64,000 nucleotides of DNA from Tahibacter harae. Lineage in GTDB: Bacteria > Pseudomonadota > Gammaproteobacteria > Xanthomonadales > Rhodanobacteraceae. The DNA is taken from the NCBI RefSeq assembly GCF_024437735.1, contig NZ_JANFQO010000002.1, positions 62,001-126,000 of the forward strand, read 5' to 3'. A model generated the notes under the pieces. That model had not been told where the DNA came from. It ran no database searches and worked only from the letters and a program-made list of their open reading frames with translations. The position numbers and the translations under genes are program-made. Below are positions 14,686 through 34,500 of the stretch, piece by piece. The stretch's first letter is position 1. Every line of letters starts with the position of its first letter.

Positions 14686-17600
14686 TCAACCGTGAAGACG
14701 CAGGCCGAGCCCGCTGGCCTCGTAGATCCTCTCGCCGTCGACCCACAGGCTGGCATCCGCGACGGCATAGTCGGGACCGGATTCGGTCACCTGCAGGGTG
14801 ATCGCCACGGCGCCGTGGTGGGGCAGTACCTGGCCGCGGTATTTCCAGGTGTGTTCGCGTCCCAGCAGCGGCGCCGGGACACCCTCTGCCGCGCTGCGCG
14901 TCGTACGCAACCACTGTTCCAAGGTCTGCAGCATTGCCTGCACGCCGAGCGAACCAGGCTGCACCGGATCCTGGAAGAAATGCGCCTTGAAGAACCACTC
15001 GCCGGCATCGACGCGCTTGCCCGCGCGGATCGCATCCGGCCAGACGCCTTCGACGCGGTCGATCATGCGCAGCGGCGATAGGCCTTCGAGTTCGCGCGCG
15101 GCATTCGCTTCGCGGCGCAGCAGCGCCTCGTGCGGCTCGCTGCGCGGCAGGCCGGCCTGCGCCGCGAGCGCGGCGCGCGGGAAGAAGCCGAACACCGTCT
15201 TCAGCGTGTAGACCTCGCGCGCGCCGACCGTGCAGCGCACGTCGAACGCGACGATGACCATGCCGCCGGACGCCGCGACCGAGGTGAGCGTGGCATGCGT
15301 GCTGAGCGTCTCGCCGCCGCGCAATTCGGAGTGCTGCGTGCCGCGGCCGTCCAGGTTGCGGAAGCGCAGCTCTTCTTCGCTCGCCAGTGCGCAGCCGGCC
15401 CAGCTCGACAGCCAGCCGCACGGCTGCAAGGCGGCTTCCTGCAGCAGCGCGAACGGCACGGCGCCGGCGGCATCCAGATACCAGGCGTCGCGCGGCACGT
15501 CGAATTCGGCCACGACGCGCGCGCCGGAACGCATTTCGCCCTGCGTACCTTCCACGTGCGCGATGCGGCTGATGCACAGGTACGGCGGTGCCGGCAGGCG
15601 CGGTGCGCGCAGCGTGCCGTCGAAGCGCTCGTACAGGGCGCCGAACGCGCGCGACGGGCGGCCCAGCGCCGACGCCAGCAGGCCCTCGCTGTCCGCGGCG
15701 GGGAAATCCGGTACCAGGCGCAGCGCAAGACGCCGCGCATGGAATGCCTTCAATCCATCGACCGTGCACAGCAGATCGGCCCAGATCGTCGGCACCGGTC
15801 CCGCCGCGATCTCCTCGACGAATACCTCGGTCACCAGCAGCCGCGAACTCGGAATCACCTGGCCGCGGCATTGCAGTTTGTAGGCGAGTTCGGGCACCGG
15901 CTCGAAGCGCGCGCCATCGTGCTCCAGCGTGTAGCCGCAGGCGGCGAGATGGAACGCGAGCGCTTGCAGGCAGCCTTCCAGCATCAGCGTGCCGGGCATG
16001 CACGGATCGTTCTTGAAATGCCCGTCGAAGAACCAGCGCGACGGGTCGATGTCGAGTTCGGCCTTGAGATACCCGCGTCCCCAGGGACCGCCGCGCGGCT
16101 CGCACGCGCTCACGCGGTCCAGCAGCAGCATGTCGCCGGACTGGATGCGCGGGCTGCGCGTGTGCGTACGCGCAAGCTCGAACCCGGCGCCGAAACACGC
16201 ATGCGTGTCGCCGTCCGCAAACGCTTCCAGCGCGGCGCGGTCGAAACGGGTGCGCCCGCTCACCGCGCGCGGCGGATCCAGGCGCGGGTTCGGGACAATC
16301 TCCTGCCCTTCCGGCGTCCACAGGCAGCCCGCCGAGCCGGCGAGTTCAGCATCGGTGAAGAAGCCGGCCTGGCCGTTCCTGACCGTCAGTTGCCTGCGGC
16401 TGCCATTCATGCAGTCGTAGTGGAAGAACATGAGGCGCACGTCGCCCTGGGCGGCGTGTCCGTCGAGATGGATATCGAAGGTGATGGTTTCACCCGCGCG
16501 CGGCAGCTCGCCGTGGTAGGTGAGTTCGCAGCCGAGCAGGCGGTAGACGCGCTCGCCGCGATTGAGCGCATCGACGCCAAGCCAGGAGATCAGCATGAGA
16601 TCGGCCTGCCCGGCCTCGACCATCACGCCGCCCGGCATGCGGCCCTGATGCAGGTACCACGGTTCGGCGCCGATATCGGTCTGCGTGGTGATAGAACCCG
16701 TGCCCATGCTCATCGGCTCGGCGTGCAAGGCGGTCACCCGATCGGCCAGCAGCAGCGGCGGACGCGGCATGCGCACCTGGCGCCGGAAGCCGTCCTGTGC
16801 GGCGAACTGCGCACCGAAGATCTGCGAGATATTGCCGTCGGCGTGGACCAGCAGGTCCGCGCGTGTGAAGCGCACGGTGCGCTCCGCCGCCTCTGCGGCA
16901 GCAGGAGCCAGGCGCCCCTGCACCCCTGCCTGCCCCGGCGCCGGCGCGTGGACGACAGCGCCGCCGGATGCCTGCTCGACCTGCCGCGGCTTGTCTGGCC
17001 CGCCGGGGCCGTTCTGCGGTTGTCCCGCCGCGGCTGGCAGCAGCGCCGGGACCGCGAGCGCAGACGCGCCCTGCCGTCCCGCACGCAGCAGCGCTTCGGT
17101 CGCCTTGGCCTGCAAGGCGAGGAACTGCCCGTGCGCCCGCGTCTGCGCTTCCGTGAACGCCTGTTGCGCCGCGGCGAGTCGCGCCAGCTCGGCGCGAATG
17201 CCCTCCAGCGCAGGATGCGCCGCCTGCCGCGGCGATGGCGGCGGCGCGGCAAGCGCCGACGCGGCGACGGACGGCAGCGCGACCGGCGCGGCAAACGCCG
17301 GCGCTGCGGCAGGCGGCGTCATGACCGGCGCGACGGGCGTTGTCGCTGCAACGGAAAGCGCCGCGCCCACGTATTCGCGCAGCGCGCATTCGGGCCCCGC
17401 GTAGTCGAGGACCGCCGGCAGCCGCGGCGCCGGCGCCATCGTCTGCAACGTGTCCTCGCGCGGCGGCAGGCGCACCGGCGGCGGGTGCGCGTCGAAGCGG
17501 CGCGGACGCCTGGCCCCGGCGCGCGGCACCGGCGCGAGCGCGGCTTCCAGCGCCGCGTGATCCACCGCCACGCCGGCGGCGAGCAGCGCCGCGGTCGCGC

Positions 17601-20600
17601 CCAGCACGTTCTCTATGCCCTCGCCCTGGCGGTCCAGGCTCACCACCAGCGCTTCGCGCGCGCCCAGCACATGACGGATCGCGCGGCCGAAGGTGCCGCC
17701 CGGTCCGTGCTCCACGAACACGCGCACGCCGTCGTTCCACGCGTTCTCGACCAGCGCACGGATGTCGATGGTATCGGCGGCCTGCGCGAGGATCGCCTGC
17801 GCGCAGGCCTCGCTGTCCGGCGCATAGGGCCGGCCGCTCGCGGTACTGTAGATGCGTCCGCGCCGCGGCGCCGAAGTTGCGCGGCGGTGCACGTCCAGCC
17901 AGGCGCGCTCGACGCCGCGCAGCTCGGGCACATGCACCACCAGCGAATAGTCCAGATGCAGGCAGCGCGCCGCGCCCAGCCGTTCGACCACGCGCGCGCA
18001 CTGCTCCGCGGCGCCCGCGACGAGGCAGCTCGCATCGTCGTTGATGATGGCGATATGCATGCGGTCCAGGCCGGCCAGCGCGCGGCGCACCTCATCCAGC
18101 GGCGCGGCGACGGTCCAGCATTGCCACGCGGCCGGCTCGCCCCAGGCGCGCGCCAGCAGATCGAAGCGGCCGGCGAGTTCGCGTTCGAGCAGCCCTGACG
18201 CTTCCATGTCGTCCATCAGCGCGTCGGGATCGTTCCAGACGCCCGCGGCAATCAGCGCATTGGTCTCGCCCGACGAATAGCCCAGCCACGCATCGGCTTC
18301 CAGGCCGAGCAGGCCTTCGCTCAACGCCAGGTGCAGCTGCGACAGCGCCGAGGAACCGCACAGTTGCTCGAATACGCTCGGCGGCGCGTCGCCCGCTGTG
18401 AAGGACCAGGCCAGCGCAGTCGCCAGGCGCCGGCTGCGCGCGCGCAGTTGTTCCTGCAGCTGCGGCAGGTGCAGCAGCAGGTCGCGGCCCATGCCGCGAT
18501 ACGACGCCCCCGCACCGGCAAACGCGAATGCGATCTGGCCGCCGACCGGCCGCGCGCGGAAGAACACGCCGCGGCCGGCGGGCGCACCGGTTTCCAGGTG
18601 GGCGACGGCGCGTGCGCGTACCGCGTCCAGCGCCGCTTCGGTCGCGACGAGTACGCAGCGCGCCGGACCGTCCAGGCTGCGGCGGTCCTGCTTCAGCGCG
18701 GCGATCACCGCGGCCTTGTCGGCACCGGCGAAACAGTACAGGCGCGCGACAGCCTGTTCGGCGCGGCGCGGATGCGCCGGGGCTTCGACGAGACCCGCCG
18801 CACGGCGCGGCGCGGCGCAAAGCCACGGTTCGCCGTCGAAATCGCGCCGGTGGTGCAGCGCCAGCGCCGCCGCAGCGGTTTGCACCAGTCCGAAAGCGGC
18901 CTGGGCGTAGCCGAAGCGCTGCCGCAGCAGGGCCTGCAACTGCGGCAGCGGTGCTTCCGACGCGGTTGCGGTCGCAGCGATACAGGCCTCATCGACCAGC
19001 GCATATACCCGGTCGCCGTCGCGCTGCGCGTCTTCGAGCCGCTTGAGCACCAGCACCACCGCCGCATCGCCGCCCGCTTCCCCGCTCGCCGCACGGTGTA
19101 CCGCCTCGCAGCCGAAATCGACTGCGCCGACGATGGCCGCATCCAGCTCACCGCAGGCGAGCGCACGCGCCGCGATGCGCAGCGCCTGCGTGCCCGACGC
19201 AGCACCGGCCTGCAGCGTGAACGACGGGCCGCCGAGATCGAACTGCGAGTTCAGGCGATTGGCCGGAATGTTCGGCATCGAACCCAGCACTGCGGCTGCT
19301 TCGAGCGCCGGCACCAGCGTCGCGCGCGCCCGTGCCGCCCAGTCGTCGCCGCGGCCGTTGGTCAGCCGCCAGCGCGCGCCGTGGCGCGCGACTTCCGGAT
19401 CGGGCTCCAGGCCGATCAGCGCCGCGCTGCGCTCGCGCGGCAGCGGCGCCGTCTCCGCCAGCGCCTCGCGCGCGGCCGCGAGCAGCGCCAGTTGCTGCGG
19501 CAGCGCCTGTTCGAGATCGCGTGGCGGAAAACGCAGCCCGTCCATATCCAGTTCAAACGAATGCATGCGGCCGTCGCGCGTCGCGCGGGCGCCGGCATCC
19601 GCACCCTCGCCGCTTTCTGCGCGTCCCTCGAACAGCGCGCGCGCGAACGCGGCGCGGTCGGGCGCATCGGCAATCTTCGCGCCGATGCCGACGATTGCGA
19701 CCGGACGCGCGAGGGCGGCGGCGGGCTCGCCGCCGATGCCGGCGTCATCTTCCGAAACGATCAGATGCGCGTTGTTGCCGCCGAAGCCGAAGGCGGAAAC
19801 CGCCGCGATGCGCGGGCCGTCGCTGCTCCATGGCTCGGCTTCGCGCAGCAGCCGGAATGGCGTCTGCTGCAAGGCCGCATCGGGATCGCCGCAGTGCAAG
19901 GTCGGCGGACGCACGCGGTTGCGCATGGCTTCGAGCACCTTGATAAGCCCTGCCGCGCCCGCGACGGTAATGAGGTGGCCGAGATTGGATTTGAGCGAGC
20001 CTATCGGCAGGTCGCGCGCCTGGGCGAACACCTGGGCGCTGCTGCGCAGCTCCGTGGCATCGCCCACCGGCGTGCCGGTGGCATGGCATTCGAGCAGCGA
20101 CACCTGCGCCGGTTCGACACCCGCAAGCGCATACGCGGCGCCGAGCGCGCGCCGCTGGCCTTCTTCGCTGGGCGCCAGGAAGCCCTTGCCGCGGCCGTCG
20201 TTGGACAAGCCGACGCCGCGGATCACGCCATGGATGGTGTCGCCGTCGCGGCGCGCATCGGCCAGGCGCTTGAGCGCCAGGAATGCCGCGCCTTCGGCCG
20301 GCAGCAGTCCGTCGGCCTCGCGATGGAACGGGCGCGAGCGCCCGGACTTGCTCAGCGCGCCGAGTGCGCAGAAGCCGACATGGAGGAAAAGATCGTCCGC
20401 GCGCTGTACCGCGCCGGCGAGCATCACGTCGGCGCGGTCGTCGTGCAGCGCATCGCAGGCGAGCTTGATCGCGTACAGCGACGAGGCGCACGCGGCGTCG
20501 AGGCAGAAACTTCCTGCCTCCAGCGCCAGCGCGCGCTCCAGCATCGCCGCGGTGCCGCCGCTCATGAAGCGGTTGCGCGGATCGATGTCGCCTTCGCCGC

Positions 20601-21012
20601 TCCACACCTGTTCGCAGAACGCGGCCATGTGCGCGGTCGGGAAACCGAGATTGCCGAAGACCGCACCCACCCGGCCGGGCGTTCGCGTCTCGCGCAGCGC
20701 TTCGCGGGCGCAATGCAGCGTCCAGTGCACCAGCGGGTCCAGCCCTTCAAGTTCGGCGGCCGCGACTGCGAAGCCGTGCGGGTTCCAGATCGTCTCGAAG
20801 CCTTGCACATAACCGCCGCGATCCGACCATGCGCGGTCCGGCTGCGGCGCCTCGGGCGCGCATAGCGCGTGCTCAGGCGCGAGGCGCCAGCGGTCCGCGG
20901 GTACGCGCGTGACCAGGTCGCGCCCGTTGACGACCGCGTCCCAGAGTGCGGCCGGACTCAGCGCGCCCGGCAGCACACAGGCGCGTCCGACGATGGCAAT
21001 TGGCGCGAACAC
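14686..21012 (-). CDS. pfa3: Pfa3-type PUFA/secondary-lipid synthase subunit: KS-CLF-AT-DH-DH
   Basis: A 2108-residue multidomain synthase. KS (about 1-425) has DAACASS with Cys175, His310 in ECHATGT and His346 in KSNLGH. A chain-length factor follows (about 437-720): KS-like, but the Cys site reads QAGAASG. An acyltransferase (about 800-1130) has GYSSGE and LVVHVPEL. After an Ala/Pro linker come four hotdog units forming two FabA-like DH didomains: pseudo-unit WYLHQGRMPGG, catalytic-type GHFKNDPCMPG, pseudo-unit WYLDAAGAVP, then AHFFQDPVQPG at the C-terminus. A GTG start at 21012 lies 4 bp after the Pfa2 stop. The order matches myxobacterial Pfa3. Product unknown: PUFA or another iteratively built lipid. 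Confidence 0.88.
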   Translation of the reverse strand: MFAPIAIVGRACVLPGALSPAALWDAVVNGRDLVTRVPADRWRLAPEHALCAPEAPQPDRAWSDRGGYVQGFETIWNPHGFAVAAAELEGLDPLVHWTLHCAREALRETRTPGRVGAVFGNLGFPTAHMAAFCEQVWSGEGDIDPRNRFMSGGTAAMLERALALEAGSFCLDAACASSLYAIKLACDALHDDRADVMLAGAVQRADDLFLHVGFCALGALSKSGRSRPFHREADGLLPAEGAAFLALKRLADARRDGDTIHGVIRGVGLSNDGRGKGFLAPSEEGQRRALGAAYALAGVEPAQVSLLECHATGTPVGDATELRSSAQVFAQARDLPIGSLKSNLGHLITVAGAAGLIKVLEAMRNRVRPPTLHCGDPDAALQQTPFRLLREAEPWSSDGPRIAAVSAFGFGGNNAHLIVSEDDAGIGGEPAAALARPVAIVGIGAKIADAPDRAAFARALFEGRAESGEGADAGARATRDGRMHSFELDMDGLRFPPRDLEQALPQQLALLAAAREALAETAPLPRERSAALIGLEPDPEVARHGARWRLTNGRGDDWAARARATLVPALEAAAVLGSMPNIPANRLNSQFDLGGPSFTLQAGAASGTQALRIAARALACGELDAAIVGAVDFGCEAVHRAASGEAGGDAAVVLVLKRLEDAQRDGDRVYALVDEACIAATATASEAPLPQLQALLRQRFGYAQAAFGLVQTAAAALALHHRRDFDGEPWLCAAPRRAAGLVEAPAHPRRAEQAVARLYCFAGADKAAVIAALKQDRRSLDGPARCVLVATEAALDAVRARAVAHLETGAPAGRGVFFRARPVGGQIAFAFAGAGASYRGMGRDLLLHLPQLQEQLRARSRRLATALAWSFTAGDAPPSVFEQLCGSSALSQLHLALSEGLLGLEADAWLGYSSGETNALIAAGVWNDPDALMDDMEASGLLERELAGRFDLLARAWGEPAAWQCWTVAAPLDEVRRALAGLDRMHIAIINDDASCLVAGAAEQCARVVERLGAARCLHLDYSLVVHVPELRGVERAWLDVHRRATSAPRRGRIYSTASGRPYAPDSEACAQAILAQAADTIDIRALVENAWNDGVRVFVEHGPGGTFGRAIRHVLGAREALVVSLDRQGEGIENVLGATAALLAAGVAVDHAALEAALAPVPRAGARRPRRFDAHPPPVRLPPREDTLQTMAPAPRLPAVLDYAGPECALREYVGAALSVAATTPVAPVMTPPAAAPAFAAPVALPSVAASALAAPPPSPRQAAHPALEGIRAELARLAAAQQAFTEAQTRAHGQFLALQAKATEALLRAGRQGASALAVPALLPAAAGQPQNGPGGPDKPRQVEQASGGAVVHAPAPGQAGVQGRLAPAAAEAAERTVRFTRADLLVHADGNISQIFGAQFAAQDGFRRQVRMPRPPLLLADRVTALHAEPMSMGTGSITTQTDIGAEPWYLHQGRMPGGVMVEAGQADLMLISWLGVDALNRGERVYRLLGCELTYHGELPRAGETITFDIHLDGHAAQGDVRLMFFHYDCMNGSRRQLTVRNGQAGFFTDAELAGSAGCLWTPEGQEIVPNPRLDPPRAVSGRTRFDRAALEAFADGDTHACFGAGFELARTHTRSPRIQSGDMLLLDRVSACEPRGGPWGRGYLKAELDIDPSRWFFDGHFKNDPCMPGTLMLEGCLQALAFHLAACGYTLEHDGARFEPVPELAYKLQCRGQVIPSSRLLVTEVFVEEIAAGPVPTIWADLLCTVDGLKAFHARRLALRLVPDFPAADSEGLLASALGRPSRAFGALYERFDGTLRAPRLPAPPYLCISRIAHVEGTQGEMRSGARVVAEFDVPRDAWYLDAAGAVPFALLQEAALQPCGWLSSWAGCALASEEELRFRNLDGRGTQHSELRGGETLSTHATLTSVAASGGMVIVAFDVRCTVGAREVYTLKTVFGFFPRAALAAQAGLPRSEPHEALLRREANAARELEGLSPLRMIDRVEGVWPDAIRAGKRVDAGEWFFKAHFFQDPVQPGSLGVQAMLQTLEQWLRTTRSAAEGVPAPLLGREHTWKYRGQVLPHHGAVAITLQVTESGPDYAVADASLWVDGERIYEASGLGLRLHG

Positions 21013-21016
21013 GCGA

Positions 21017-24000
21017 CTAGGCGCCGTTCGGCAAGGCGTGGTTCTGCACGCCGAGCATTTCGGCGTAGCGCCGGCCGCTCCGGTCGGTCAGCACGATATC
21101 CGTGGTCGTATCGCTGCTGCCGACCTTGCGCAGATAGGCGGTGGCCGTGATCGGGCCGGCGCTGGGCTCGGCGCCGAAATGCCGCAGTTCCCCGATGGCT
21201 GTCGGCAGCGTCTGGCCGCCGAGCAGGCGCCGGCCGTGCAGCGCGGCGACCTGCAGGCCGCCGTCGAGCGCGGCGACATCCAGCGTCCAGCTCTCCCCTT
21301 CCCAGCCGGCCGCGTCGACGCCGCGCACCGTCGCGTCTATGCCTTCGTCGGAAATGCCGCGCACTTCGTCGATCAGCTCGAACTGTTTGCGATGGAACAG
21401 CAGCTCGGGATAGATGCGTTCGCCGCTCCACGGGTCGAGGGTAAGGCCGGGCGCCTCGCGTCTGGGCTTGGGCGGTTCGGGCAGCAATTCCGCGCGGGCG
21501 CTGTAGTTCAGCGCGCCGCGCGCGTCGCGCACGGTCATCAGCAGCTGCGCGCCGCGCTCGCTGGGCAGCGGCGTCGCCTCAATGCGGCAGCGGTCGCCGC
21601 CATTGTCGAACCCGCCGAGACGGATGCCCTTGAGCACCTTGAGTTCGTGCAGGCTGGCCAGCGCCAGCCCCGGACGGAAGCTGCGCGCCGCGCGCGCCAT
21701 CCATTCGGCCACGAGCACGACCGGCACCACCGGCGTGCCTTTCACCGCGTGGCCTTCCAGGAAGGCGTGGCTGGCGCGCGAGACCACCAGTTCCACGCCC
21801 TGCACGCGCGCCTGCGCCCCGTCCATCAGCAGCGCTTCGCCGCGCGGCTCGCCGCCGAGCACCAATTCGATATCGGTGGCGCGCGAGTCGCACATTTCGT
21901 CGGCGAACATCTTCGCGCCGGCGTCCAGCGGAACCATGGGAACACCGAGTTCGGCAAAGCGCGCCTTCAGCGCCGGCGTGACCATGCCGCCTTCCCACGG
22001 TCCCCAGCCCAGCGACTTCGCGCGCAGGCCCGGGCGCTGGCGCGCCTCGGCCGCGACCACCTTGGCCAGCACTTCGTTGGCCATCGCGTAATCGCTCTGC
22101 CCGGTGTTGCCGCAGCGCGCCGACACCGACGAGAACACGCACAGCAGTTTCAGCGGATCGGCCGCGGTCGCGGCCAGCAGGGCGCGCAGCCCGCCGACCT
22201 TGGTGCCGAACACGAGGTCGAACTGCGCCAGCGTCTTGTCGGCGATGCGGCGGTCGGCGAGTACGCCCGCGGCGTGTACGACACCTGCGATCGCGCCCCA
22301 GTCCTGACGCACGCGCTCCAGCGTGGCGGCGAGCGCGGCGGCATCGTCGACCGCGACCGATTCGTAGCGCGCCTGCGCGCCCTGGGCCTGGATCGCGGCC
22401 AACGTCGCGCGGATCTCGCGCGCGCCGAGGATGCGATCCACTTCGCGCGACAGTTCGGCCGGCGTGAGCGCCGCACCGCGCGCGAGCACGATGCGCTTGA
22501 GCTGCGCTTCGTCGTCGACGCCGGCGCAGTCGGCGGCTTCCTCGCGCAGCGGCGTGCGCCCGAGCAGCACGAAGCGCGCCTTGCATTGTTTGGCCCATTC
22601 CACGATGCAGGCGGCAGTCACACCGCGCGCACCGCCGGAGACGACGACGACATCGCCGGCGTTGATCGCGGCGACCGAGGGACGTACCGCGCGCGCCAGG
22701 CTCTTCAGCGTGTAGCGGCCGCCGGCGGCGGGCAAGGCCACCTCGATCTCGCCGCCGCCGCGCAGCAGTTCGCCGGCGATGACCTCCGCAAGCGCCGCAT
22801 CGTCGCGCGCGCCGCGCTCCACGTCGATGGACTTCAGCGTCGCGCGCGGCCATTCCAGCGCCGCGGTCTTGACCAGCGCGGGCAGGCCCGCCAGCCAGGC
22901 GCGGCGCGCATCGGCATTGCGCAGGCCGAAATGGCCGCCGGTGTCCTGCACGGTCACGAACAGCGCATCGTCGACGCCGGCCAGGCGCTGCGCGACGACG
23001 AAGGCATCGCGGTTGACCGCCATCGCCTGCACCGCATCCTCGACCGGGCGCAGACCGCCCAGGTAGACACAGCGCTTTGCGCCGTCAGGCAAGGCCTCCA
23101 CCGCCTGCGCCTCGACACCGTTGCTGCGCAGCGCGGCCGCAACCGCGGCATCCAGGCCCGCAGCGCCGAGCACGAACACCGGCGCGCCGTCGCTCAGCCC
23201 CGGCGCGGCAAAGCCGGCCGCGGGCGCGGGCATGAGTTCGAGCACGAAGCGGCCAAGCTCGGCGCGGCGCGTCGGCCTGGCTTTTTGCACCTCGGCGCCC
23301 GGCGACGCTGCCGCGGCAGACGGCGCCGGGGTCGCGCCGAGGTAGGCCACGATGTCGGCCAGCGTATGCATTGCCGCCGGGGGCGCGCGGTCTTTCGCGA
23401 TGCCAGGTACGTGCCCGGTCATCGCGGCGAGGATTTCCACGCGCTTGATCGAGTCGATGCCGAGGTCCGCTTCGATGTCCATGGACAGATCCAGCATCTC
23501 CACCGGATAGCCGGTCTTGTCGGCGACGACGCCAAGCAGGATTCCCGCGATGTCGGCGGCGGCCGGGGCGGCGGTGGATGGTGCGACGGCGGGGATTGCG
23601 GCCGCCGCTCCGCCCTGCAGGTATCCGGCGATCTGCCGCAATGTATGCATGCCGCTCATCTTTGTGCGATCGGCCTGCACGACGAGCGCGCCTTGCGCGT
23701 GCACCGCGGCGAGGATTTCGACCCGCTTGATCGAATCGACGCCGAGGTCGGCTTCGAGATCCATGTCGAGATTGATCATCTCCGCGGGATAGCCGGTCTT
23801 CTCGGCGACGACGGCGATGAGAAGCGCGGCGAGGTCGGCGCCGGACGCCGGTGCCGGCGCGGCAACGGGCGTCGCAACGGCTGGAGCGGCGGAGACAGCA
23901 ATCGCCGGCGGCGCGCCAGGTGCAGGCGGGGCCGGCGGCGGCACGGCGGGCTGCGCCGGCATGGCCGCCGCGACCGGCGGCGGAACCGGCGACAGCGGCG

Positions 24001-27000
24001 CGGCGCTCTGCGCGGCTGCGACCGGAGCCGCGACTGCGGCGGCCGGCGCCGCGCCGAGCAGCGCGGTGAGGCCGTTGATCGCGCTCTCGGCCAGCTTGAG
24101 GTATTGCGCATGACTGTCGCTCAGCGCGCGCTGATAGGCGGCGTGCGCGTTCGCGGTCTGCTGCTGCGCCTCCTGGAACGCGGCGAGCCAGGCTGGCGAC
24201 AGCGGCGATTCTTCTTTCACGGTGCGTACCTCGACAACGGGTGCGGATTCCGCACGCGGCGGATTGGGAGCGGGCAGCTGCGACGGATCCGCCGGCGGAT
24301 AGGGTTTGCCGACATTGCTGCCGCTGATCGCGATGCCGTGTTTGTGCATCGCCGGCGGCGCCGGTACGCGCACGTCGGCGAACAGGGCCGGCAATCTGGT
24401 CACATGGCCCGCGGCGGCGAGCTGTGCGATACCCGCGAGCAGCGGTTCCAGATCGGACTTGCCTTTGCGATCCAGGGCTATCGCTCGATGCGCGCGCGTA
24501 CCCAGGATCGCGCCGACCAGCCCCTTGAGCACCGTGCTCGGGCCGACTTCGACAAAACAGCGCGCGCCCGCGGCGTACATCGCTTCGATGGTTTCCACGA
24601 AGCGCACCGGCTGGGCGATCTGCTGCGCGAGGACGGCGCCGGCATCGCCGGCGTACGGCGCGGCGTGCGCGTTCGCGTAGACCGGCACGCGCGGCGCGGC
24701 GAATGCGATGGTGGCGAGGAACTCCCTGAACGGCGCGCACGCGGGCGCTACCTGGGCGGAATGGAAGGCGGCGGCGACCGGCAGACGCTTCGCTGCCACG
24801 CCTTGCGCCTCAAGCGCGGCGATGGCCTCCAGCGGCCCCGATACAACGACTTGCTCGGGCGCGTTGTGGTTGGCAATGGCCAGCGACGGGCCGATCAGCT
24901 CGCGCGCCCGTTCGATCGGGCACGCCAGCGCGCACATCGCGCCGCTGCCGTCCGCCGCCGCGTCGCGCATCAGTTCGCCGCGGCGGCGCGCGATGCGCAG
25001 GGCGTCGGCTTCGCTGACGGCACCTGCCGCGTGCAGCGCGACGATCTCGCCGAAGCTGTGGCCGGCGGCCATCGCGCCCTCGACGCCGAGGTCGCGCAGC
25101 ACGGCAAGCAGTGCCATCGACGCCAGGCCCAGCGCAGGCTGCGCGTTTTCGGTGCACGTGAGCTGATCGCCCGAATTGCCGAACACGATCTCGTGGACGC
25201 CCAGGTCGGCCGCGCGGTCCCACACGGCGCGGGCCGCGTCGAACTGCATCGCCGCGGCGGCGCCCATGCCGGCGTACTGGCTGCCCTGCCCCGGGAACAG
25301 CAGCGCCAGCGCGCCCTCGGGTGCGCCCACACCGTAGCTGGTGCCGTCCGGCAGCTGGAACGGCAGCGCAGGACCGGCGGCGATCTTCGTCTGCGCGGCG
25401 GCCAGCCGCCCGTCGAGTTCGGCGGTGCTGGCCGCGACGACGGCGAGGCGCACGGCGGCGCTGTGGTCGAACGCATCGCGCGAGGCGCGTGCGAGCGAGG
25501 GCAACGGCAGATTGCCCGCACAGGATTGCCGCAGCTGCGTAATCTGTTCGATCAGCGCCGCGGCGCCAGGTGCGCTCAGCGCAACGAGTTCGTGCGACTG
25601 CGTCGCGAGCCGCTCCGCGCGCGGCGCCGGGCCGGCGTATTCCTCCAGCGCGAGGTGGAAATTCGAGCCGCCGAAACCGAAGGCGCTGACCGCCGCACGG
25701 CGCGGGTGCGAAGCGGCGCGGATCCACGGCCGCGCTGATGTATTGAGATAGAACGGGCTTTGCGGCAATTCCAGCCTGGGGTTGGGCACGTCGGCCTTGA
25801 TCGTCGGCGGCAGCACCTTGTGGTGCAGCGCCATCACCACCTTGAACAGGCCGGCGGCGCCCGCGGCCGCCTTGGTATGGCCGATCTGGCTTTTCACCGA
25901 CCCCAGCGCGCACCACTGCGTGCGCGCGGCATCCGCTTCGGCATAGACGCTGCGCAAGCCTTCGAACTCGGCCGCATCGCCGGCCTTGGTGCCGGTACCG
26001 TGCGCCTCGACCAGCTCCACGGTCGCGGGACCGAAGCCGGCCTGGGCGTAGGCGCGGCGCAGTGCCACCGCCTGCCCCGCCGACACCGGCGCGTACACCG
26101 ACTTCGCGCGGCCGTCCGACGAGGTGCCTACGCCGCGCAGCACCGCGTAGATGCGGTCGCCGTCGCGCTCGGCGTCGGCGAGGCGCTTCAGCGCGACCAT
26201 GCCCAGCCCTTCGCCGAGCATGGTGCCGTCGGCCTGGTCCGAGAATGGCCGGCAGTCGCCGCTGGGCGACAGCGCCGGCGTCTTGGAAAAGCACATGTAC
26301 ATGAAGATGTCGTTGAGCGTATCGACGCCGCCGCTGATGACGAGGTCGGAATCGCCCAGCTGCAGTTCGTTGACCGCCATCTGGATCGCGGAAAAGCTCG
26401 ATGCGCAGGCCGCATCGGTCACGCAGTTGGTGCCGCCCAGGCCCAGCCGGTTGGCGATGCGCCCGGCGACGACATTGCCGAGCAGGCCAGGGAACGAGGC
26501 TTCCTGCCACGGCACGTACTGCGCGGCGATGCGCGCGCAGGCGGCCTGCACTTCGTCTTCGGGCAGCCCCGTTTCGCGCAGCGCCTTCTGCCAGACCGGG
26601 CGCTGCAGGCGCGATACCAGCGAGAACAGCAGCTCCTGCGCGCTGGTGACGCCCAGGATCACCGAGATGCGCGAGCGGTCCATGGTCTCGAACTGCTCGC
26701 GCGCGGCATCTTCGAGCACCGCACGCGCCGCGATCAGCGCGAGCAGCTGCGAGGTATCGGTGGCGGGAATCGTCGCCGGCGGTATGCCCCAGCCCAGCGC
26801 ATCGAAATCCATCGGCGCGAGAAAACCGCCGCGGCGGGCGTAGGTCTTGTCGGGTGCCGCCGGATCCGCGTCGTAGTAGTCGTCGATGCGCCAGTGCGTG
26901 GCCGGTACGTCCGTCAGCAGATCCTTGCCGGCGAGGATGTCGCGCCAGAAGCCGTTCGCGTCGTGCGACCCGGGAAAGATCGCGCTGACGCCGACAATGG

Positions 27001-27028
27001 CGATTGGCTGGCGCTGCGGTGAACTCAT
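21017..27028 (-). CDS. pfa2: Pfa2-type PUFA/secondary-lipid synthase subunit: KS-MAT-ACP-ACP-KR-DH
   Basis: A 2003-residue iterative synthase. KS has DAACASS (Cys208), His343 in EAHGTGT and His384 in IGHTKAAAG. A malonyl-type AT (about 590-900) has FPGQGSQ and GHSFGE. An Ala/Pro linker leads to two tandem ACPs with DLGVDSIKR and DLGIDSIKR phosphopantetheine sites. The KR has SGGARGVTAA, VVHAAGVLADR and the SVSARCGNTGQSDYAMAN Ser/Tyr block. A C-terminal PKS-type DH has HAVKGTPVVP (HxxxGxxxxP) and LDGGLQ. ATG 27028 overlaps the Pfa1 TGA (ATGA); longer upstream frames are Arg-rich noise. PfaA/Pfa2 proteins usually carry four to nine ACPs, so two is unusual. No phosphopantetheinyl transferase is in the window. 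Confidence 0.9.
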   Translation of the reverse strand: MSSPQRQPIAIVGVSAIFPGSHDANGFWRDILAGKDLLTDVPATHWRIDDYYDADPAAPDKTYARRGGFLAPMDFDALGWGIPPATIPATDTSQLLALIAARAVLEDAAREQFETMDRSRISVILGVTSAQELLFSLVSRLQRPVWQKALRETGLPEDEVQAACARIAAQYVPWQEASFPGLLGNVVAGRIANRLGLGGTNCVTDAACASSFSAIQMAVNELQLGDSDLVISGGVDTLNDIFMYMCFSKTPALSPSGDCRPFSDQADGTMLGEGLGMVALKRLADAERDGDRIYAVLRGVGTSSDGRAKSVYAPVSAGQAVALRRAYAQAGFGPATVELVEAHGTGTKAGDAAEFEGLRSVYAEADAARTQWCALGSVKSQIGHTKAAAGAAGLFKVVMALHHKVLPPTIKADVPNPRLELPQSPFYLNTSARPWIRAASHPRRAAVSAFGFGGSNFHLALEEYAGPAPRAERLATQSHELVALSAPGAAALIEQITQLRQSCAGNLPLPSLARASRDAFDHSAAVRLAVVAASTAELDGRLAAAQTKIAAGPALPFQLPDGTSYGVGAPEGALALLFPGQGSQYAGMGAAAAMQFDAARAVWDRAADLGVHEIVFGNSGDQLTCTENAQPALGLASMALLAVLRDLGVEGAMAAGHSFGEIVALHAAGAVSEADALRIARRRGELMRDAAADGSGAMCALACPIERARELIGPSLAIANHNAPEQVVVSGPLEAIAALEAQGVAAKRLPVAAAFHSAQVAPACAPFREFLATIAFAAPRVPVYANAHAAPYAGDAGAVLAQQIAQPVRFVETIEAMYAAGARCFVEVGPSTVLKGLVGAILGTRAHRAIALDRKGKSDLEPLLAGIAQLAAAGHVTRLPALFADVRVPAPPAMHKHGIAISGSNVGKPYPPADPSQLPAPNPPRAESAPVVEVRTVKEESPLSPAWLAAFQEAQQQTANAHAAYQRALSDSHAQYLKLAESAINGLTALLGAAPAAAVAAPVAAAQSAAPLSPVPPPVAAAMPAQPAVPPPAPPAPGAPPAIAVSAAPAVATPVAAPAPASGADLAALLIAVVAEKTGYPAEMINLDMDLEADLGVDSIKRVEILAAVHAQGALVVQADRTKMSGMHTLRQIAGYLQGGAAAAIPAVAPSTAAPAAADIAGILLGVVADKTGYPVEMLDLSMDIEADLGIDSIKRVEILAAMTGHVPGIAKDRAPPAAMHTLADIVAYLGATPAPSAAAASPGAEVQKARPTRRAELGRFVLELMPAPAAGFAAPGLSDGAPVFVLGAAGLDAAVAAALRSNGVEAQAVEALPDGAKRCVYLGGLRPVEDAVQAMAVNRDAFVVAQRLAGVDDALFVTVQDTGGHFGLRNADARRAWLAGLPALVKTAALEWPRATLKSIDVERGARDDAALAEVIAGELLRGGGEIEVALPAAGGRYTLKSLARAVRPSVAAINAGDVVVVSGGARGVTAACIVEWAKQCKARFVLLGRTPLREEAADCAGVDDEAQLKRIVLARGAALTPAELSREVDRILGAREIRATLAAIQAQGAQARYESVAVDDAAALAATLERVRQDWGAIAGVVHAAGVLADRRIADKTLAQFDLVFGTKVGGLRALLAATAADPLKLLCVFSSVSARCGNTGQSDYAMANEVLAKVVAAEARQRPGLRAKSLGWGPWEGGMVTPALKARFAELGVPMVPLDAGAKMFADEMCDSRATDIELVLGGEPRGEALLMDGAQARVQGVELVVSRASHAFLEGHAVKGTPVVPVVLVAEWMARAARSFRPGLALASLHELKVLKGIRLGGFDNGGDRCRIEATPLPSERGAQLLMTVRDARGALNYSARAELLPEPPKPRREAPGLTLDPWSGERIYPELLFHRKQFELIDEVRGISDEGIDATVRGVDAAGWEGESWTLDVAALDGGLQVAALHGRRLLGGQTLPTAIGELRHFGAEPSAGPITATAYLRKVGSSDTTTDIVLTDRSGRRYAEMLGVQNHALPNGA
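23350..23860 (-). other. Tandem acyl-carrier domains within Pfa2
   Basis: Two ACPs only. The serine codons for 4'-phosphopantetheine attachment are at 23732-23734 and 23450-23452, 282 bp (94 codons) apart, each within L(G)(V/I)DSIKRVEIL. They are separated by an Ala/Pro-rich linker. Confidence 0.9.
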
Positions 27029-28656
27029 GCGAGGGGCCTCGGACGGAAATCGAACGCGGACGGCGGAATGGCCAAGCCGAAGGTACGCAGCTGCTGCACG
27101 CGCGTGAGCACCGCGGCGCCTTCGAGCAGGTTCAGCGCGACCTGCACGGCGGTGCGCCTCTCGGGCGCTTCGAGGAAGCTGCCCGCGGCCCAGGTGTTGA
27201 ACGCCCCCATGGCGGGGCCGCACCAGATCTGGTAATCGGTCAGCCGCTCGCTCACGCCGTCGATCGCCCAGCGGCTGGAGAGGCCCAGGTAGGAACGGAA
27301 TACCAGCGCCATGCGGTGCTTCGGATCGGATTCGGCGCGTGCGACGTGGGAGGGATCGCGCGAGGACCAGAATGCGCGCGTCGAGGCCCAGGCCTCGTCG
27401 AAGCTGGCGCGCAGCATGTCTTTCTCGATCTTCGCCCGCTCGGCGGCCGGAACCGCTTCCAGCGACGGATAGGCGCGGTAGATCTCGTAGAGCTTCTTCG
27501 CGCGGATCGCGAACAGGGTGCCGCGGCGCAGGACCTGCACATCGACGCCCAGCTCGAACATGTCGGCCGCCGGCGCCATGATGACATCGGCCATCGAGGC
27601 TTGCGCCAGCATCGCCCGCGCACCGGCGCCGAGGCCCGATTCCACGCAGGCTTGGTTCACCGAGCCGGTCTGCACATAGGCCGCGCCCAGCGCAAAGGCC
27701 GACGCCAGCGCACCCGGCGTGCCCAGGCCGCCGGCGGCACCGACGCGGATCGGCCGCGCGTAGCGCTGCTCCGCGACGATGCGGTCGCGCAGCGCCATGA
27801 TGGTCGGCAGCAGCGCGGCCAGCGGACGGTTGTCGGTGTGGCCGCCGGAATCCGCCTCGCAGGTGATGTCCTCGGCCAGCGGTATGCGTGCGGCCAGCTC
27901 GGCTTCGGCGCGCGTGAGTTCGTTGCGCGCGACCAGTGCGTCGAGCAGCGCGGCCGGCATCGGCGCCATGAACTGCTTTGCCACTTCCTCGCGCGAGACC
28001 TTGGCCAGCACGCGATGGCGGCGCCGGATGGCGCCCGTGTCGTCGACGGTGAGGCCGCTAGCCGCGTAGCGCACGATCGCCGGCGTGAGCCCCATGAACG
28101 CCGAGGCTTCGACGCAGCGCACGCCGCGCCGGATCAGCAGCGCCGCCACCGCGTCTTCGATCGCCGGCTCGTTCGGGCTGTGGATGAGGTTCACGCCCCA
28201 GGGCAGCCCGAGCGGATCGAGTTCGCGGGCCAGTTCATCGGCCGCGGCTTCCACGCGCGCCAGCGACAGGCCCGCGGCGCCGAAGAAGCCGAGGCAGCCC
28301 GCGCGCGCCATTTCGGCCACCAGCCGGGCCGTGGCGATGCCATTGGCCATCGCGCCCGCGACATAGGGAAAGCGTGTGCCGTGCGTCTCGCCGAAGCCGC
28401 GGTCGCCCAGCCACTCGGGGTACAGCGGCGGCAGCATGCCGAGCACCGGCCAGGCGCCGCTTTGGGCCGCGGCGACCAGCGCGCCGTCCAGCCCGACGCC
28501 GAGCCGGCCGTCGCGGTCGTCGCGGATCACGACCGCGGTATGGCGCACCTGGGCGCAGGCGGCCGCCAGCTCGGCCGGCGCGAACGCGGGCGCGCCGCCG
28601 TGCCAATACGCCGGCGCGTGGGGAGCAATCGGGGGGACACTAGCCAAAACTGGCAC
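27025..28656 (-). CDS. pfa1: Pfa1/PfaD-type enoyl reductase (NPD-like FMN enzyme)
   Basis: A 543-residue PfaD-family trans-acting enoyl reductase of the 2-nitropropane-dioxygenase-like TIM-barrel superfamily. It is expected to reduce enoyl intermediates held on the Pfa2 ACPs. Diagnostic segments are FPYVAGAMANGIATA, LGFFGAAGLSL, ITCEADSGGHTDNRP and the FMN-binding VGAAGGLGTPGALASAFALG with YVQTGSVNQACVESG. The C-terminal part (GPAMGAFNTWAAGSFLE) is the PfaD-specific extension. The GTG at 28656 has no clear Shine-Dalgarno, so an in-frame TTG at 28647 or a short-leader transcript is possible. First gene of the pfa1-pfa2-pfa3 operon and divergent from a TetR gene. Confidence 0.92.
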   Translation of the reverse strand: MPVLASVPPIAPHAPAYWHGGAPAFAPAELAAACAQVRHTAVVIRDDRDGRLGVGLDGALVAAAQSGAWPVLGMLPPLYPEWLGDRGFGETHGTRFPYVAGAMANGIATARLVAEMARAGCLGFFGAAGLSLARVEAAADELARELDPLGLPWGVNLIHSPNEPAIEDAVAALLIRRGVRCVEASAFMGLTPAIVRYAASGLTVDDTGAIRRRHRVLAKVSREEVAKQFMAPMPAALLDALVARNELTRAEAELAARIPLAEDITCEADSGGHTDNRPLAALLPTIMALRDRIVAEQRYARPIRVGAAGGLGTPGALASAFALGAAYVQTGSVNQACVESGLGAGARAMLAQASMADVIMAPAADMFELGVDVQVLRRGTLFAIRAKKLYEIYRAYPSLEAVPAAERAKIEKDMLRASFDEAWASTRAFWSSRDPSHVARAESDPKHRMALVFRSYLGLSSRWAIDGVSERLTDYQIWCGPAMGAFNTWAAGSFLEAPERRTAVQVALNLLEGAAVLTRVQQLRTFGLAIPPSAFDFRPRPLA

Positions 28657-28657
28657 T

Positions 28658-28711
28658 CAGTGGCACTTTAGGGGACGCCGTTATAGCCGTCCTGGGGTGG
28701 AAATGCCACTG
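28658..28711. promoter_or_regulatory. Overlapping divergent promoters and candidate TetR operator
   Basis: An 8-bp inverted repeat, CAGTGGCA (28658-28665) and TGCCACTG (28704-28711), supplies a GTGGCA -35 in each direction. For pfa1 (-): GTGGCA at 28709-28704, 18-bp spacer, TATAAC at 28685-28680. For tetR (+): GTGGCA at 28660-28665, 16-bp spacer, TATAGC at 28682-28687. Between the arms lies a second dyad, GGACG-N10-CGTCC (28673-28692), covering both -10 elements and a likely repressor site. TGGCACT is also directly repeated at 28651 and 28661. Assignments are by eye. Confidence 0.5.
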
Positions 28712-29287
28712 CGAGAAGCCAAGAAGGCCGCAGTCCGTCAAGCGCTGGTCGCCGCGGCGAACCGCCGCTTCCATCGCCACGGCTTTGAACAGACCACGAT
28801 CGACGAGATCTGCGCCGACGCCGGCGTGAGCCGGCGCACCTTCTTCCGCTATTTCGAGAACAAGGAAGCGCTCGCGTTTCCGCACCGGAACGAACGCCTG
28901 GAACGCTTCCTCGCCCTGCTCGACGGGGCCGGCCACTCGCCCAACCCGGTCGACGGCCTGCGCGCGATCTGCGAAATCTTCGCCCAGGAATACTCGGCCA
29001 ACCGCGCGGCCATCCTGGCGCAGCAGCGCCTGGTCGATTCCGTACCGGCTCTCGCCGCGCGCGAGCACGAGATCGACCGCGACTGGGAAACCGCGATGGC
29101 CGCCACGTTCCACCGCCGCTTCGGCCGCGGCGCCGCCTCCGAGCGCCGCGCACGCCTGATGGCCGGCGCCGCCATCGGCGTCATCCGCGCGACGATGCGC
29201 TACTGGTACGAAAAGGATGGCAAGCCCGATCTGGCGCGGCTGGGGCAGGAAGCACTGGACGGACTGGAGCAAGGTTTCCTGTCCTGA
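28703..29287 (+). CDS. TetR/AcrR-family transcriptional regulator
   Basis: A 194-residue repressor-type regulator. The N-terminal TetR DNA-binding domain shows RQALVAAANRRFHRHGFEQTTIDEICADAGVSRRTFFRYFENKEAL, with the helix-turn-helix at about 30-52. The C-terminal helical ligand domain contains the YSANRAAILAQQRLVDSVP block seen in TetR members acting near lipid or antibiotic genes. The start MPLREAKK (ATG 28703) follows GGGGTGG closely; longer upstream frames run antisense through pfa1. Divergent placement 46 bp from pfa1 makes it the likely local regulator of the synthase operon and of itself. The ligand could be an acyl-CoA or pathway product (inference). Confidence 0.92.
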   Translation: MPLREAKKAAVRQALVAAANRRFHRHGFEQTTIDEICADAGVSRRTFFRYFENKEALAFPHRNERLERFLALLDGAGHSPNPVDGLRAICEIFAQEYSANRAAILAQQRLVDSVPALAAREHEIDRDWETAMAATFHRRFGRGAASERRARLMAGAAIGVIRATMRYWYEKDGKPDLARLGQEALDGLEQGFLS

Positions 29288-30968: not shown

Positions 30969-31553
30969 ATGTCCCGTCGCCCTGTTCCTCCCTGGTGCCA
31001 AGGCACCATCGCTGCCCTCGCCCTGGCCGCACCGCTCCCTGTGATGGCCGCGGGCGGCGCCTGCGCGGGGTCGCCGCCGCCGGCGTTCGAGCTTTCCATC
31101 GCCAGCGGGGCAATGCGCGACGGCGAGGAAAACCGGGTCGAGGTGCGCGCCCATGCCGACGGCTGCGTCGCCGTGCGCCGGCCCTGGTTTCTGCGCGAGG
31201 CGGGCGAGTACGAGCTGCGTCTGGATGCGCGGGAATGGGCGGCGCTGCAAAGCGCGGTGGCGCCGGAGGAACTGCGCAAGATCGATCCGCGGCGCCTGGG
31301 CGCACAGACAAGGCAGGTATGGAAGGATGCGGCGGCCGGCCCGGTCGTGTTCGCCGAGCCGGATGCGGATGTGTACACCCTGCGCTGGCGCGAGGGCGAT
31401 GCGCTGCGCCAGCTGGTGGCGGGTGATCCGCGCCAGGCGGCGGCGCGCCAGCCCGAATCGGCCGAGGCGGGCCGCGTCGCGCAAGCGGTAGCGGCTCTGC
31501 GTGCGCTGGCTTCGCGCACGGGCAAGCCTGTGGCGGCGGAGGGCGCGAAATGA
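30969..31553 (+). CDS. Small secreted protein coupled to the metzincin-like exoprotein
   Basis: A 194-residue exported protein with the signal peptide IAALALAAPLPVMAAGG. The mature part contains two early cysteines (GACAG and DGCVAV) and an RPWFLREAGEYELRLDAREW block; no known domain is recognised. GGAG precedes the ATG. Its TGA overlaps the ATG of the 2550-aa protein (ATGA at 31550-31553), so the two are translationally coupled. It could be a chaperone, inhibitor or accessory factor for that putative protease, which is inference from coupling alone. Confidence 0.8.
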   Translation: MSRRPVPPWCQGTIAALALAAPLPVMAAGGACAGSPPPAFELSIASGAMRDGEENRVEVRAHADGCVAVRRPWFLREAGEYELRLDAREWAALQSAVAPEELRKIDPRRLGAQTRQVWKDAAAGPVVFAEPDADVYTLRWREGDALRQLVAGDPRQAAARQPESAEAGRVAQAVAALRALASRTGKPVAAEGAK

Positions 31554-34500
31554 ACCGCACCCGCCTGACCGCATTGATCGCTTTCGCCGCGACCGCGCTG
31601 CCGCAGCTGGCTGGCGCCGGCAGCTTCATCGCGGTCGAAGAGGACGAACCCGGCCGCGTCGCACATCAGAACTACCAGGGCGCCGGCGGCGAGCTGGCGC
31701 AGATCCGCGTCTGCATCGACAACTCGGTCAACCCGGCCCTGGCCGCCGCCGCGGAACCGGCGGTGCGCAATGTCGTCGCCACCTACAACCGTATCCGTTC
31801 GCTGGCGGACAACACCTATGCCGAAGGTGCGGCGACCAGCGCGCCCCCGGACCAGGTGGATTTCGAAACCGTGCTGCTGCACGAATTCATGCACGCCAAC
31901 GGCCTGGATCATCCCAACCAGGCCAACAATCCCGCGGGCGCCGGCGGCTACAACTATGGCGACTCGCGCAGCGCCGACGGCGCCAACAACGTGCTCGATC
32001 ACCTTGGCGATGCCGACGGCATTCCCGGCTCGGCCGACGACCAGCGCGGCGACGACGTGAACCTGCTCTGGTATCCGCGCGGCACCAACGATCCCGCCGT
32101 GCTGCCTGCGGTGGTGGATACGACCACGATGGCGCGCACGCTGGACCATCTGCCGCCGGGCCAGCATTTCGCCGCGAACGCCAACAGCGCGGTGATGGCT
32201 GCGCTGGGCCATCCCAACAGCGAGGCGGTGGCGGTACAGGGCTATGTGCAGGGCCAGGTCGGCCGTCATCTGCACCATGACGACCTGGCCATGCTGCAGC
32301 TGGCGCGGGCCGGTATCGACGGCCTCGCCGGCACGGCCGACGACTATCGCACCAGCGCGGTGTTCGCCGGTTTCTTCAACAATCCGCAGGGCGGCGAATG
32401 CTCCATGGTGGTGCGCTTCATCGACGAGGTCGGCTTCGCCGGCACCCTGGTCGGCCTCACGCCGCTGGCGCCCAACCATTGGCGCCTGATCTACCCGACC
32501 CGCATGCGCTTCAACCCGGCGGTGAACTGGTACTTCACGCCGGGCGCCAACACCGCGATGCAGATAGACCCGGCCACGCCCGGCACCAGTTCCGGCGTGA
32601 CGCCGTACACCGTGCAGGTAACGGTGGCCAAGGCCGGCTACAACCTGATGAGCGGCACGCCGCGGGGAAGCGTGATCGTGCGCGACGGCGCGCGCGGCGA
32701 CCCGCTGACGGCGGCCTGTTCCATTGATCTCACGCCGGCTTCGGGCGGCAGCGGCAGCTGCCTGCTCACGCCCGTGACCGCCGGCCGCAAGATACTGACC
32801 GCCGACTACGTCGGCTGGGGCGGCTGGGACGGCAATACCGCCAGCGTCGCGCACGACGCTACCGGCGTGGTGACGTTCGCGAACATCACGCAGGCCCCCT
32901 CCCCGTCCGCCATCGGCGTCGATGTCAATTTCGACTGGGCGCTGGTGCCGCCGGGCGGAGGCGCGCCGGTGCAGGCCAGCGGCAGCGTCGTGGTGAAGGA
33001 AGCGGCCGACTGCGCTTCCGCGCCGGCCGATCCCGCACTGCAGTGCTCGGCGACACTGCCGGCGCACGGCTGTTCCATCCGCTTTTCCAGCCCCGGCACG
33101 CATACGCTGCGGCTGTGCTACAGCGGCGACAGCGCCGTGGCGCCGGCCCAGGCCAGCGTGGTGCATACCGTGCTCGCCGGACGCGCGACTGCGACCAGCA
33201 TCCTGGCGCAGTCCTCGTCGCTGACCAAGCCCTACGAGCCGTATACCGTACAGGTGCAGGTACGCGAGGTTCCGGACCAGGGCGGCCATCCGCAGGGCAC
33301 CGTCATCGTGCGCGACGGCGACGACAGCGATCCGCTGACCGCGCGCTGCACCGCCACGCTGGCCGGCACGCCCGACGAAACCGCGTCCTGCCAGCTCGCT
33401 TCCAACCGTGCCGGCGTGCACCCGCTCACCGCGTCGTTCGCCGACCAGGGGCTGTGGATGGGCAGCAGTTCGGCCTCGCTCGCCCATTCGGTGCGCAGCT
33501 TCGCCATCGTCAGCAACAATCCGTCCAGCGTGCCGCTGGGACAGGCGGCCAGCGTGGTGGTGGCGCTGGAAGTCGCGCCCTTCGGCGCCACGCCGGCGCC
33601 CAGCGGCACCATCGTCGTCAGCAACGGCAGCGACAGCTGCGAGATCGTGCTGCCGGCCAGCCATTGCGCCTGGCGCGGCAGCAGTACGGGCACGCATCAG
33701 CTGGTCGCCAGCTGGAGCGGCGATGCCAACTATCCGGCCATGACCACAGCCGCGGTGATGCAGACGGTGACGCCGGCGGCGCCGTATCCGCGCTGGGTAT
33801 CGCAGGCGCGCAGCGGCTATCCGGAAAGCAACGCCGCCTCGACCGGATCCAACCGCGGGCTGTCCGCGGACGGCCGCTTCGTGGTGTTCTCTTCCAGCGC
33901 GACCGACCTCGTCGGCGACGATACGAACGGCGTCGAGGACGTATTCGTGCGCGACCAGCTCAACGGCGGGCTGCGCCGCGTCAGCGTCACCGCCGCCGGC
34001 GCGCAGGGCAACGGTGCCAGCCGCCTGCCGGCCATCAGCGCCGACGGGCGCTTCGTGTCGTTTGAATCGCAGGCGAGCAATTTCTTTCCTGGCGACAGCA
34101 ACGACAAGGACGTCTTCGTCAAGGACCTCTACAGCGGCGCCCTGGTGCGCGCGACCACGCGCGCCGACGGCAGCGCGCCGACCACGCCCGAACTCGCGTT
34201 CGCCACCACGGCGCTGCGTTCCTCGCTGAGCGCGGACGGGCGCTTCGTGGCCTTCGCCACCTACCGCCTGCTGGCGCCCGGCGATACCAACGGCCGCGTC
34301 GACACCTACGTCAAGGACCTCGCCACCGGCGCGCTGGACCTCGTCAGCAGCAACAGCGCCGATCAGCCCGGCGACAACCACAGCCAGTTTCCCGCCATCA
34401 GCGCCGATGGCCGCTACGTTGCCTACAACTCCACCGCGGGCAACCTGGTGCCGAATTTCCCGGCGAACGGCCTGCTCAACCGCGTCTTCGTCAAGGACCG

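Follow-up and report, generated by a model that had tools for sequence, protein, structure and literature searches.

The described polyunsaturated fatty acid (PUFA) synthases closest to the system reported here are those of myxobacteria such as Aetherobacter and Minicystis, in which pfaD comes first, followed by genes for a KS-MAT-ACPn-KR-DH and a KS-CLF-AT-DH-DH protein, and the phosphopantetheinyl transferase (PPTase) is encoded elsewhere; PMC4882568 assigns the Aetherobacter synthase to Type L. The marine synthases of eicosapentaenoic and docosahexaenoic acid (EPA and DHA; Types A and B, as in Shewanella and Moritella) consist of homologous enzymes, but Type A is described as having a separate pfaB and 4-6 ACPs (PMC3098273). 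Gene order and most domains are further shared by pfaD-first clusters of Streptomyces and other actinobacteria, and the pfa cluster of Tahibacter aquaticus has already been included in the synteny comparison and trees of PMC8436480. Here, we analyze the pfa operon in a 64,000-nucleotide stretch of Tahibacter harae DNA (the window; C12:62001-126000 of a 5.99-Mb genome in 79 contigs, termed G000), which an earlier note made from the letters alone (the original prediction) had described as a Pfa-type lipid synthase of myxobacterial gene order in a probable gammaproteobacterium. The host is indeed a gammaproteobacterium, of the genus Tahibacter, and the operon, judged by its sequence, probably encodes a functional secondary lipid synthase that works iteratively in the manner of PUFA synthases and belongs to the myxobacterial type with pfaD first. 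TetR gene, putative operator and pfa1-pfa2-pfa3 would together form a self-contained cassette, with a C20-C22 PUFA as the likely product. If true, the potential PUFA makers would come to include an order of gammaproteobacteria beyond the classical marine producers.

Among the known systems, the operon appears closest to myxobacterial Type L, with which it shares pfaD at the 5' end and a fused pfaBC, yet it lacks the acyl-glycerol acyltransferase (AGPAT) that belongs to Type L and seems to represent a clade-specific form with a private regulator. What appears to be new is, on the one hand, the conserved unit formed by a divergent TetR gene, a palindrome predicted to be its operator and the pfa genes and, on the other, the clade-wide absence of a ~690-residue Pfa3 tail in Xanthomonadales. 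Our literature searches, with subscription journals mostly outside their reach, returned no paper on a PUFA synthase in Xanthomonadales or Lysobacter, only PMC8436480 and PMC13291983 for Tahibacter combined with polyunsaturated, and nothing on topic, as judged by title, for PUFA synthase combined with TetR or operator.

A tightly coupled operon with intact motifs

Three minus-strand genes follow each other in the tight order pfaD, pfa2, pfa3 and span positions 28656-14686. The enoyl reductase (ER) gene pfaD (pfa1; 27025-28656) matches TIGR02814 with 624 bits against a cut-off of 449; pfa2 (21017-27028) encodes a KS-MAT-ACP-ACP-KR-DH protein of 2003 residues, identified by its Pfam domains, its motifs and TIGR02813 (1362 bits, cut-off 1010); and pfa3 (14686-21012, GTG start) encodes a KS-CLF-AT-DH-DH protein of 2108 residues with Pfam matches for KS, AT and three FabA stretches. 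The order and extent proposed beforehand for this coupled operon were thereby borne out with Pfam and NCBIfam models. Pfa2 most likely starts at ATG 27028 and not at GTG 27223; the ATGA at this start overlaps the pfaD stop codon, and the gap between the Pfa2 stop and the Pfa3 start is 4 nt. The exact start of pfaD is uncertain, because GTG 28656 falls within a conserved palindrome (28651-28665), and the true start is probably slightly downstream.

With a PfaA-like KS-MAT-ACP-KR protein, a KS-CLF protein and PfaD, and with family models above their cut-offs, the operon has what broadly defines Pfa-type secondary lipid synthases. In this family, the motif residues of the KS, MAT, KR, DH, AT and FabA-like units are catalytic. 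Both KS domains have the Cys/His/His motifs, and the CLF has QAGAASG where a KS has its cysteine motif; the MAT carries GHSFG, the AT of Pfa3 GYSSG, the KR SGGARG and SDYAM, each of the two tandem ACPs DSIK, and each FabA-like unit of Pfa3 a GHF or AHF histidine. The C-terminal DH of Pfa2 gave a weak Pfam match (PKS_DH_N, 24.2 bits against a cut-off of 27), and its motifs HxxxGxxxxP (as HAVKGTPVVP) and DGGLQ are present. For the AT of Pfa3, PF00698 reached 36.7 bits (cut-off 32.7), and the PfaB-family model TIGR02816 reached 55.8 bits, below its cut-off of 144.3. The operon thus looks real and, as far as motifs can indicate, catalytically complete.

Xanthomonadales operons group with those of myxobacteria

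PfaD is at least 88% identical in 6 of the 7 other genomes of the genus Tahibacter, with 90-91% for the named loci of T. aquaticus, T. caeni and T. soli, and the PfaA KS domains are 94-96% identical across the genus. Of 348 genomes belonging to the order Xanthomonadales, 13 have a PfaD match at E 1e-140. Besides, another Tahibacter genome (G005) contains a PfaD-like enoyl reductase that extends over two frames with a stop and looks broken (L016, C1:3549693-3551095).

We calculated three maximum-likelihood trees, two of the PfaA KS (80 rows, and 54 rows with more Xanthomonadales) and one of the Pfa3 KS (52 rows). Usable PfaA and Pfa3 KS domains were available for 77 and 51 of 82 labelled loci, respectively, and 54 of 89 were chosen for the third tree; some truncated or distant loci among the 80 best PfaD relatives were left unlabelled. 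Named sequences of Shewanella, Sorangium, Aetherobacter or Minicystis are not among the rows: the myxobacterial rows, genomes as well as metagenome-assembled genomes (MAGs), are those assigned to the same class as G407, a Myxococcales MAG, and the marine side is anchored by gammaproteobacterial genomes and, in the Pfa3-KS tree, by part of PDB chain 6riw (molecule name ORF10), which we take to be Moritella PfaC.

In all three trees, the Xanthomonadales operons form one clade (14 rows, support 100/99 in the 54-row tree), which is joined with starred support to genomes of the myxobacterial class. The exception is L251 from G688 (family f8), which despite its PfaD match groups with other gammaproteobacterial rows in the 54-row tree; one further PfaD-positive genome, G578, was not placed. 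The sister rows in the PfaA-KS trees include the Deltaproteobacteria MAG UBA796 (five myxobacterial or deltaproteobacterial rows, 98/95 in the 54-row tree). The 6riw fragment, by contrast, groups with the gammaproteobacterial rows L146/L147, far from the Xanthomonadales clade. A union of the Xanthomonadales with these marine-type rows, the placement that would have spoken for an ordinary marine synthase, was rejected in the approximately unbiased (AU) test (p 3.8e-56). The trees therefore support the earlier suggestion of an exchange between Xanthomonadales and myxobacterial lineages, which may have run in either direction, since a tree with the 14 myxobacterial rows as a clade excluding Xanthomonadales was not rejected (AU p 0.185).

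The gene order had been regarded as that of terrestrial myxobacteria, but by itself it is not specific to them, as it also occurs in Streptomyces, Kibdelosporangium, Mycobacterium and Azospirillum. The actinobacterial pfaD-first clusters, however, mostly have one ACP and lie on separate KS branches. In contrast to Type A, the window operon has its AT inside Pfa3 and only two ACPs. A TIGR02816 (PfaB) search at 1e-12 matched 8 of 369 genomes, with 2 matches above cut-off, and none of the 8 is a stand-alone PfaB, because all lie in frames of 1777-3013 residues.

A divergent TetR gene and a palindrome upstream of pfaD

Divergently from pfaD, the plus strand encodes a TetR-family regulator (28703-29287) with a TetR_N and an MftR-type C-terminal domain (PF00440 and PF17754, both above cut-off). 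Between the two genes, alignment revealed the palindrome TGCCACTNAGTGSCA (28651-28665), a predicted operator, and just upstream of it TATAAC (28680-28685, minus strand), which may be the -10 element of the pfaD promoter; TATAA is present in 13 of the 17 aligned rows. TetR homologues (E 1e-12) were found beside 13 of the 14 operons of the Xanthomonadales clade and beside L209, L212 and L022, with no other matches in the set of open reading frames (ORFs). The palindrome, allowing up to 2 mismatches, lies upstream of pfaD in all 14 rows of the clade. Of the 57 other ER-first rows, 4 have it (L022, L208, L209 and L212), each a member of the sister subclade, and none of the 17 rows lacking the ER-first order does; 3 further rows are too short. 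Within the set examined, TetR and palindrome are hence confined to the Xanthomonadales clade and four closely related rows, which sets these operons apart from the myxobacterial synthases. At up to 1 mismatch the palindrome is single in the window genome; the reversed pattern, used as a control, likewise matched once, showing that chance matches occur.

A blastn comparison of the window contig with four other Tahibacter operons delimited a block common to all from about -640 to +13,960 around pfaD, corresponding to the divergent TetR gene and pfa1-3; ORFs conserved at about +13.6 kb from pfaD are antisense within pfa3. At this setting, nothing more was shared with the window contig by T. soli and G001, whose upstream sequence is limited to ~12 and 10 kb, respectively. 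T. aquaticus has additional, partly rearranged blocks in common with it, and G005 additional weaker stretches, most of them repetitive, together with a single block at 74%.

The TetR protein would most likely repress the pfa operon, and perhaps its own gene as well, since the predicted operator overlaps the pfaD start region. A long-chain acyl ligand may release it; MftR is reportedly under the control of long-chain acyl-CoA. Such a dedicated repressor would, if true, explain a product missed by standard profiling, and the TetR-operator pair would be a direct handle for switching such an operon on. A repressor would likewise permit an operon that is silent or decaying, with nothing made under ordinary conditions, as could be read from the ordinary fatty acid profiles that PMC13178995 reports for the related genus Dokdonella. 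We regard this explanation as unlikely in view of the open frames and intact motifs of the window operon and the 94-96% identity of the PfaA KS domains across Tahibacter, which argue for selection.

Pfa3 of Xanthomonadales lacks a C-terminal tail

In all 10 complete Xanthomonadales Pfa3 proteins, only 0-17 residues follow the last DH, compared to 686-694 in the sister rows G473 and G444. Pfa3 of the window ends directly after its last FabA-like DH, and a Pfam scan of its C-terminus found FabA only and no match to PF01553 (AGPAT). The lack of an acyl-glycerol acyltransferase, already remarked upon in the original prediction, is therefore real and, moreover, a trait of the whole clade. The G473 tail contains a PF01553 acyltransferase match (33.6 bits, cut-off 23) and PKS-DH-like matches below cut-off (20.6 of 23.7 and 22.1 of 27), while the PKS-DH matches in the G444 tail are at cut-off (27.2 of 27 and 23.6 of 23.7); for G444, AGPAT rests on tail length, as the scanned piece stopped before the acyltransferase region. 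The ~690-residue tail of the sister myxobacteria would thus comprise AGPAT and probably DH4, end domains presumed to link the fat to a membrane lipid, and the window Pfa3, unlike the myxobacterial synthases, is devoid of both the C-terminal acyltransferase and DH4. PF01553 is also carried by Azospirillum and G532. Some distant types have no tail either, so that the absence alone is not unique.

Aetherobacter fasciculatus, which lacks DH4, is reported to make docosapentaenoic acid (DPA) and DHA, and an inserted active DH4 to shift its profile (PMC6731297); the Xanthomonadales clade would allow the roles of DH4 and AGPAT to be tested in a natural setting. As PfaB is described as a terminal long-chain acyltransferase (PMC12895367), the AT of Pfa3 could plausibly unload the chain without AGPAT.

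That the tail is missing throughout the clade, and that the Pfa3 KS is only 70% identical to that of the best myxobacterial row, could also be taken to mean that the operon makes a different secondary lipid, e.g., a C18 PUFA, a lipid of the envelope or of resting cells, or a polyene destined to become a hydrocarbon, and not an EPA/DHA-like PUFA; products are listed as uncharacterized for 14 of the 20 types in PMC3098273. We consider this possible but doubtful, since the domain set of EPA/DHA synthases is complete, including KS-CLF, AT and two FabA-like DH units, and since the operon has an affinity to myxobacteria, among which PMC8436480 names PUFA producers.

ACP number and PPTases

Two tandem ACPs had been predicted and were confirmed, and the myxobacterial synthases differ from the window operon in this respect as well; two is, however, not an unusual number. 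Among 50 ER-first loci, in which pfaD leads and a single PfaA frame contains both KS and KR (the window and four other Tahibacter loci included), we counted one ACP motif in 23, two in 13, three in 8, four in 5 and six in 1; these loci stem mostly from the 80 best PfaD relatives, with actinobacteria over-represented, and diverged ACPs may be missed by motif. With one or two ACPs in 36 of the 50 loci, two are nothing out of the ordinary in this actinobacteria-rich sample, and the count rules out reading few ACPs as a mark of novelty. Furthermore, the number of tandem ACPs was reported to change the yield and not the product profile (PMC5067506).

A PPTase had also been noted as lacking nearby. 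Neither of the two PPTases of the genome (L001 and L002, found in a genome-wide PF01648 search) is indeed encoded in the window, but their presence elsewhere rules out that the enzyme is missing, and PPTases away from the pfa cluster are likewise described for Aetherobacter, Sorangium and Minicystis (PMC8436480) and for Moritella (PMC4882568). In L001, HGKP and FNLSH were seen by eye, consistent with P1a and P1b as described in PMC3098273.

Proposed working and product

Taken together, the ACPs would be activated by a PPTase encoded elsewhere in the genome, and, following what is known of the family, the MAT would load malonyl units, the two KS systems would condense them, and the KR and the DH of Pfa2 would process the chain. 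The two FabA-like DH units would dehydrate and isomerize, thereby setting cis double bonds, and PfaD would saturate in chosen cycles. The PfaB-like AT of Pfa3 may then unload the chain, which, because the C-terminal tail of the sister myxobacteria is missing, would probably be handed to a soluble ACP or CoA, or released, and subsequently be esterified by the cell's own acyltransferases. The product is most likely a C20-C22 polyunsaturated acyl chain; it may also be an undescribed lipid, as the original prediction envisaged.

Several observations weigh against a working PUFA synthase of this kind. For related Dokdonella strains, the major fatty acids reported are all branched or monoenoic (PMC13178995). 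The tail absent here is present in the nearest myxobacterial Pfa3 proteins, so that the product may not be the same as in those lineages. Pfa3 of Sorangium has no AT, which PMC8436480 suggests as the cause of its making neither DHA nor EPA, so that single domains matter. With regard to the regulator, L244 (G565) has the palindrome but no TetR match at E 1e-12, and L211 (G444) of the sister subclade has neither. With regard to ACP activation, no P0 motif (hRxhLS) could be made out by eye in L001, and FNLSN takes the place of the P1b motif in L002.

Beyond the working synthase proposed above, we tentatively suggest that the Xanthomonadales may possess a PUFA synthase branch of their own, a transferred cassette shared with myxobacteria that would include a private TetR-operator switch and would have shed its built-in lipid-attachment module, so that the chain would go to an acceptor other than phosphatidic acid and yield an undescribed inducible lipid.

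The T. aquaticus copy and its PKS-NRPS neighborhood

The operon of T. aquaticus DSM 21667 is the same as that of the window, with a 91% identical PfaD and the same two-ACP layout. A 2026 survey lists this strain as a triple hybrid of polyketide synthase (PKS), nonribosomal peptide synthetase (NRPS) and pfa genes and describes it with its Mycobacteriales clade IV (PMC13291983). Since T. aquaticus has a single PfaD match at E 1e-40, the cluster in print is most likely this very operon. According to this proposal, the pfa operon would make the lipid part of a hybrid lipid-polyketide-peptide. The PKS-containing ORFs of T. aquaticus do end ~9 kb upstream of pfaD in our ORF scan (the NRPS part being taken from PMC13291983), and a PKS-NRPS cluster lies on the same contig of the window genome (C12:1-34022). 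However, the block common to the Tahibacter operons covers only TetR and pfa1-3, and the T. aquaticus PKS ORFs gave only short 65-71% matches with the window contig in blastn. Likewise, when a 1000-residue piece of the T. aquaticus PKS was searched against six other Tahibacter genomes, no match exceeded 46% identity, although PfaD is highly conserved wherever present, and holding the Xanthomonadales with three Mycobacteriaceae rows was rejected (p 1.7e-6). No PKS or NRPS domains were detected in the 22 flanking window ORFs scanned, and no KS matches on C12 between 20,086 and the pfa operon. Clade IV triple hybrids are defined by the presence of both PKS and NRPS genes no more than 20 kb from pfa, an arrangement that was therefore not found in the window genome, unlike in the neighborhood described for T. 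aquaticus. We thus deem a hybrid product quite improbable here. Our findings also question whether the T. aquaticus copy is linked to PKS-NRPS genes as published; the link looks doubtful, and the entry deserves review, because the survey itself discarded clusters whose co-localization was not conserved among close strains (PMC13291983).

The cluster at C12:1-34022 (L127, L128) starts at the contig edge and includes an HMG-CoA-synthase-like gene; no AT domain was found in its five scanned proteins, suggesting a trans-AT type. It also contains a second PfaD-family enoyl reductase (C12:18695-20014, minus strand; TIGR02814, 636 bits). The window genome and G005 appear rich in PKS/NRPS genes: one T. 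aquaticus PKS piece had 33 and 34 matches in them, respectively, compared to 2-14 in five other Tahibacter genomes.

Neighboring genes

A fatty acid desaturase (PF00487; 306-1244, minus strand) is encoded ~13 kb past the pfa3 end, with no sign of belonging to the conserved unit. The window further encodes two very large repeat proteins on the plus strand, one of 1604 residues with DUF11 repeats (3982-8796) and one of 2550 residues with Big_3_5, fn3 and PD40 matches (31550-39202), as well as an extracytoplasmic function (ECF) sigma factor, after which come two Ser/Thr kinase-TPR proteins, one per strand (41861-48300).

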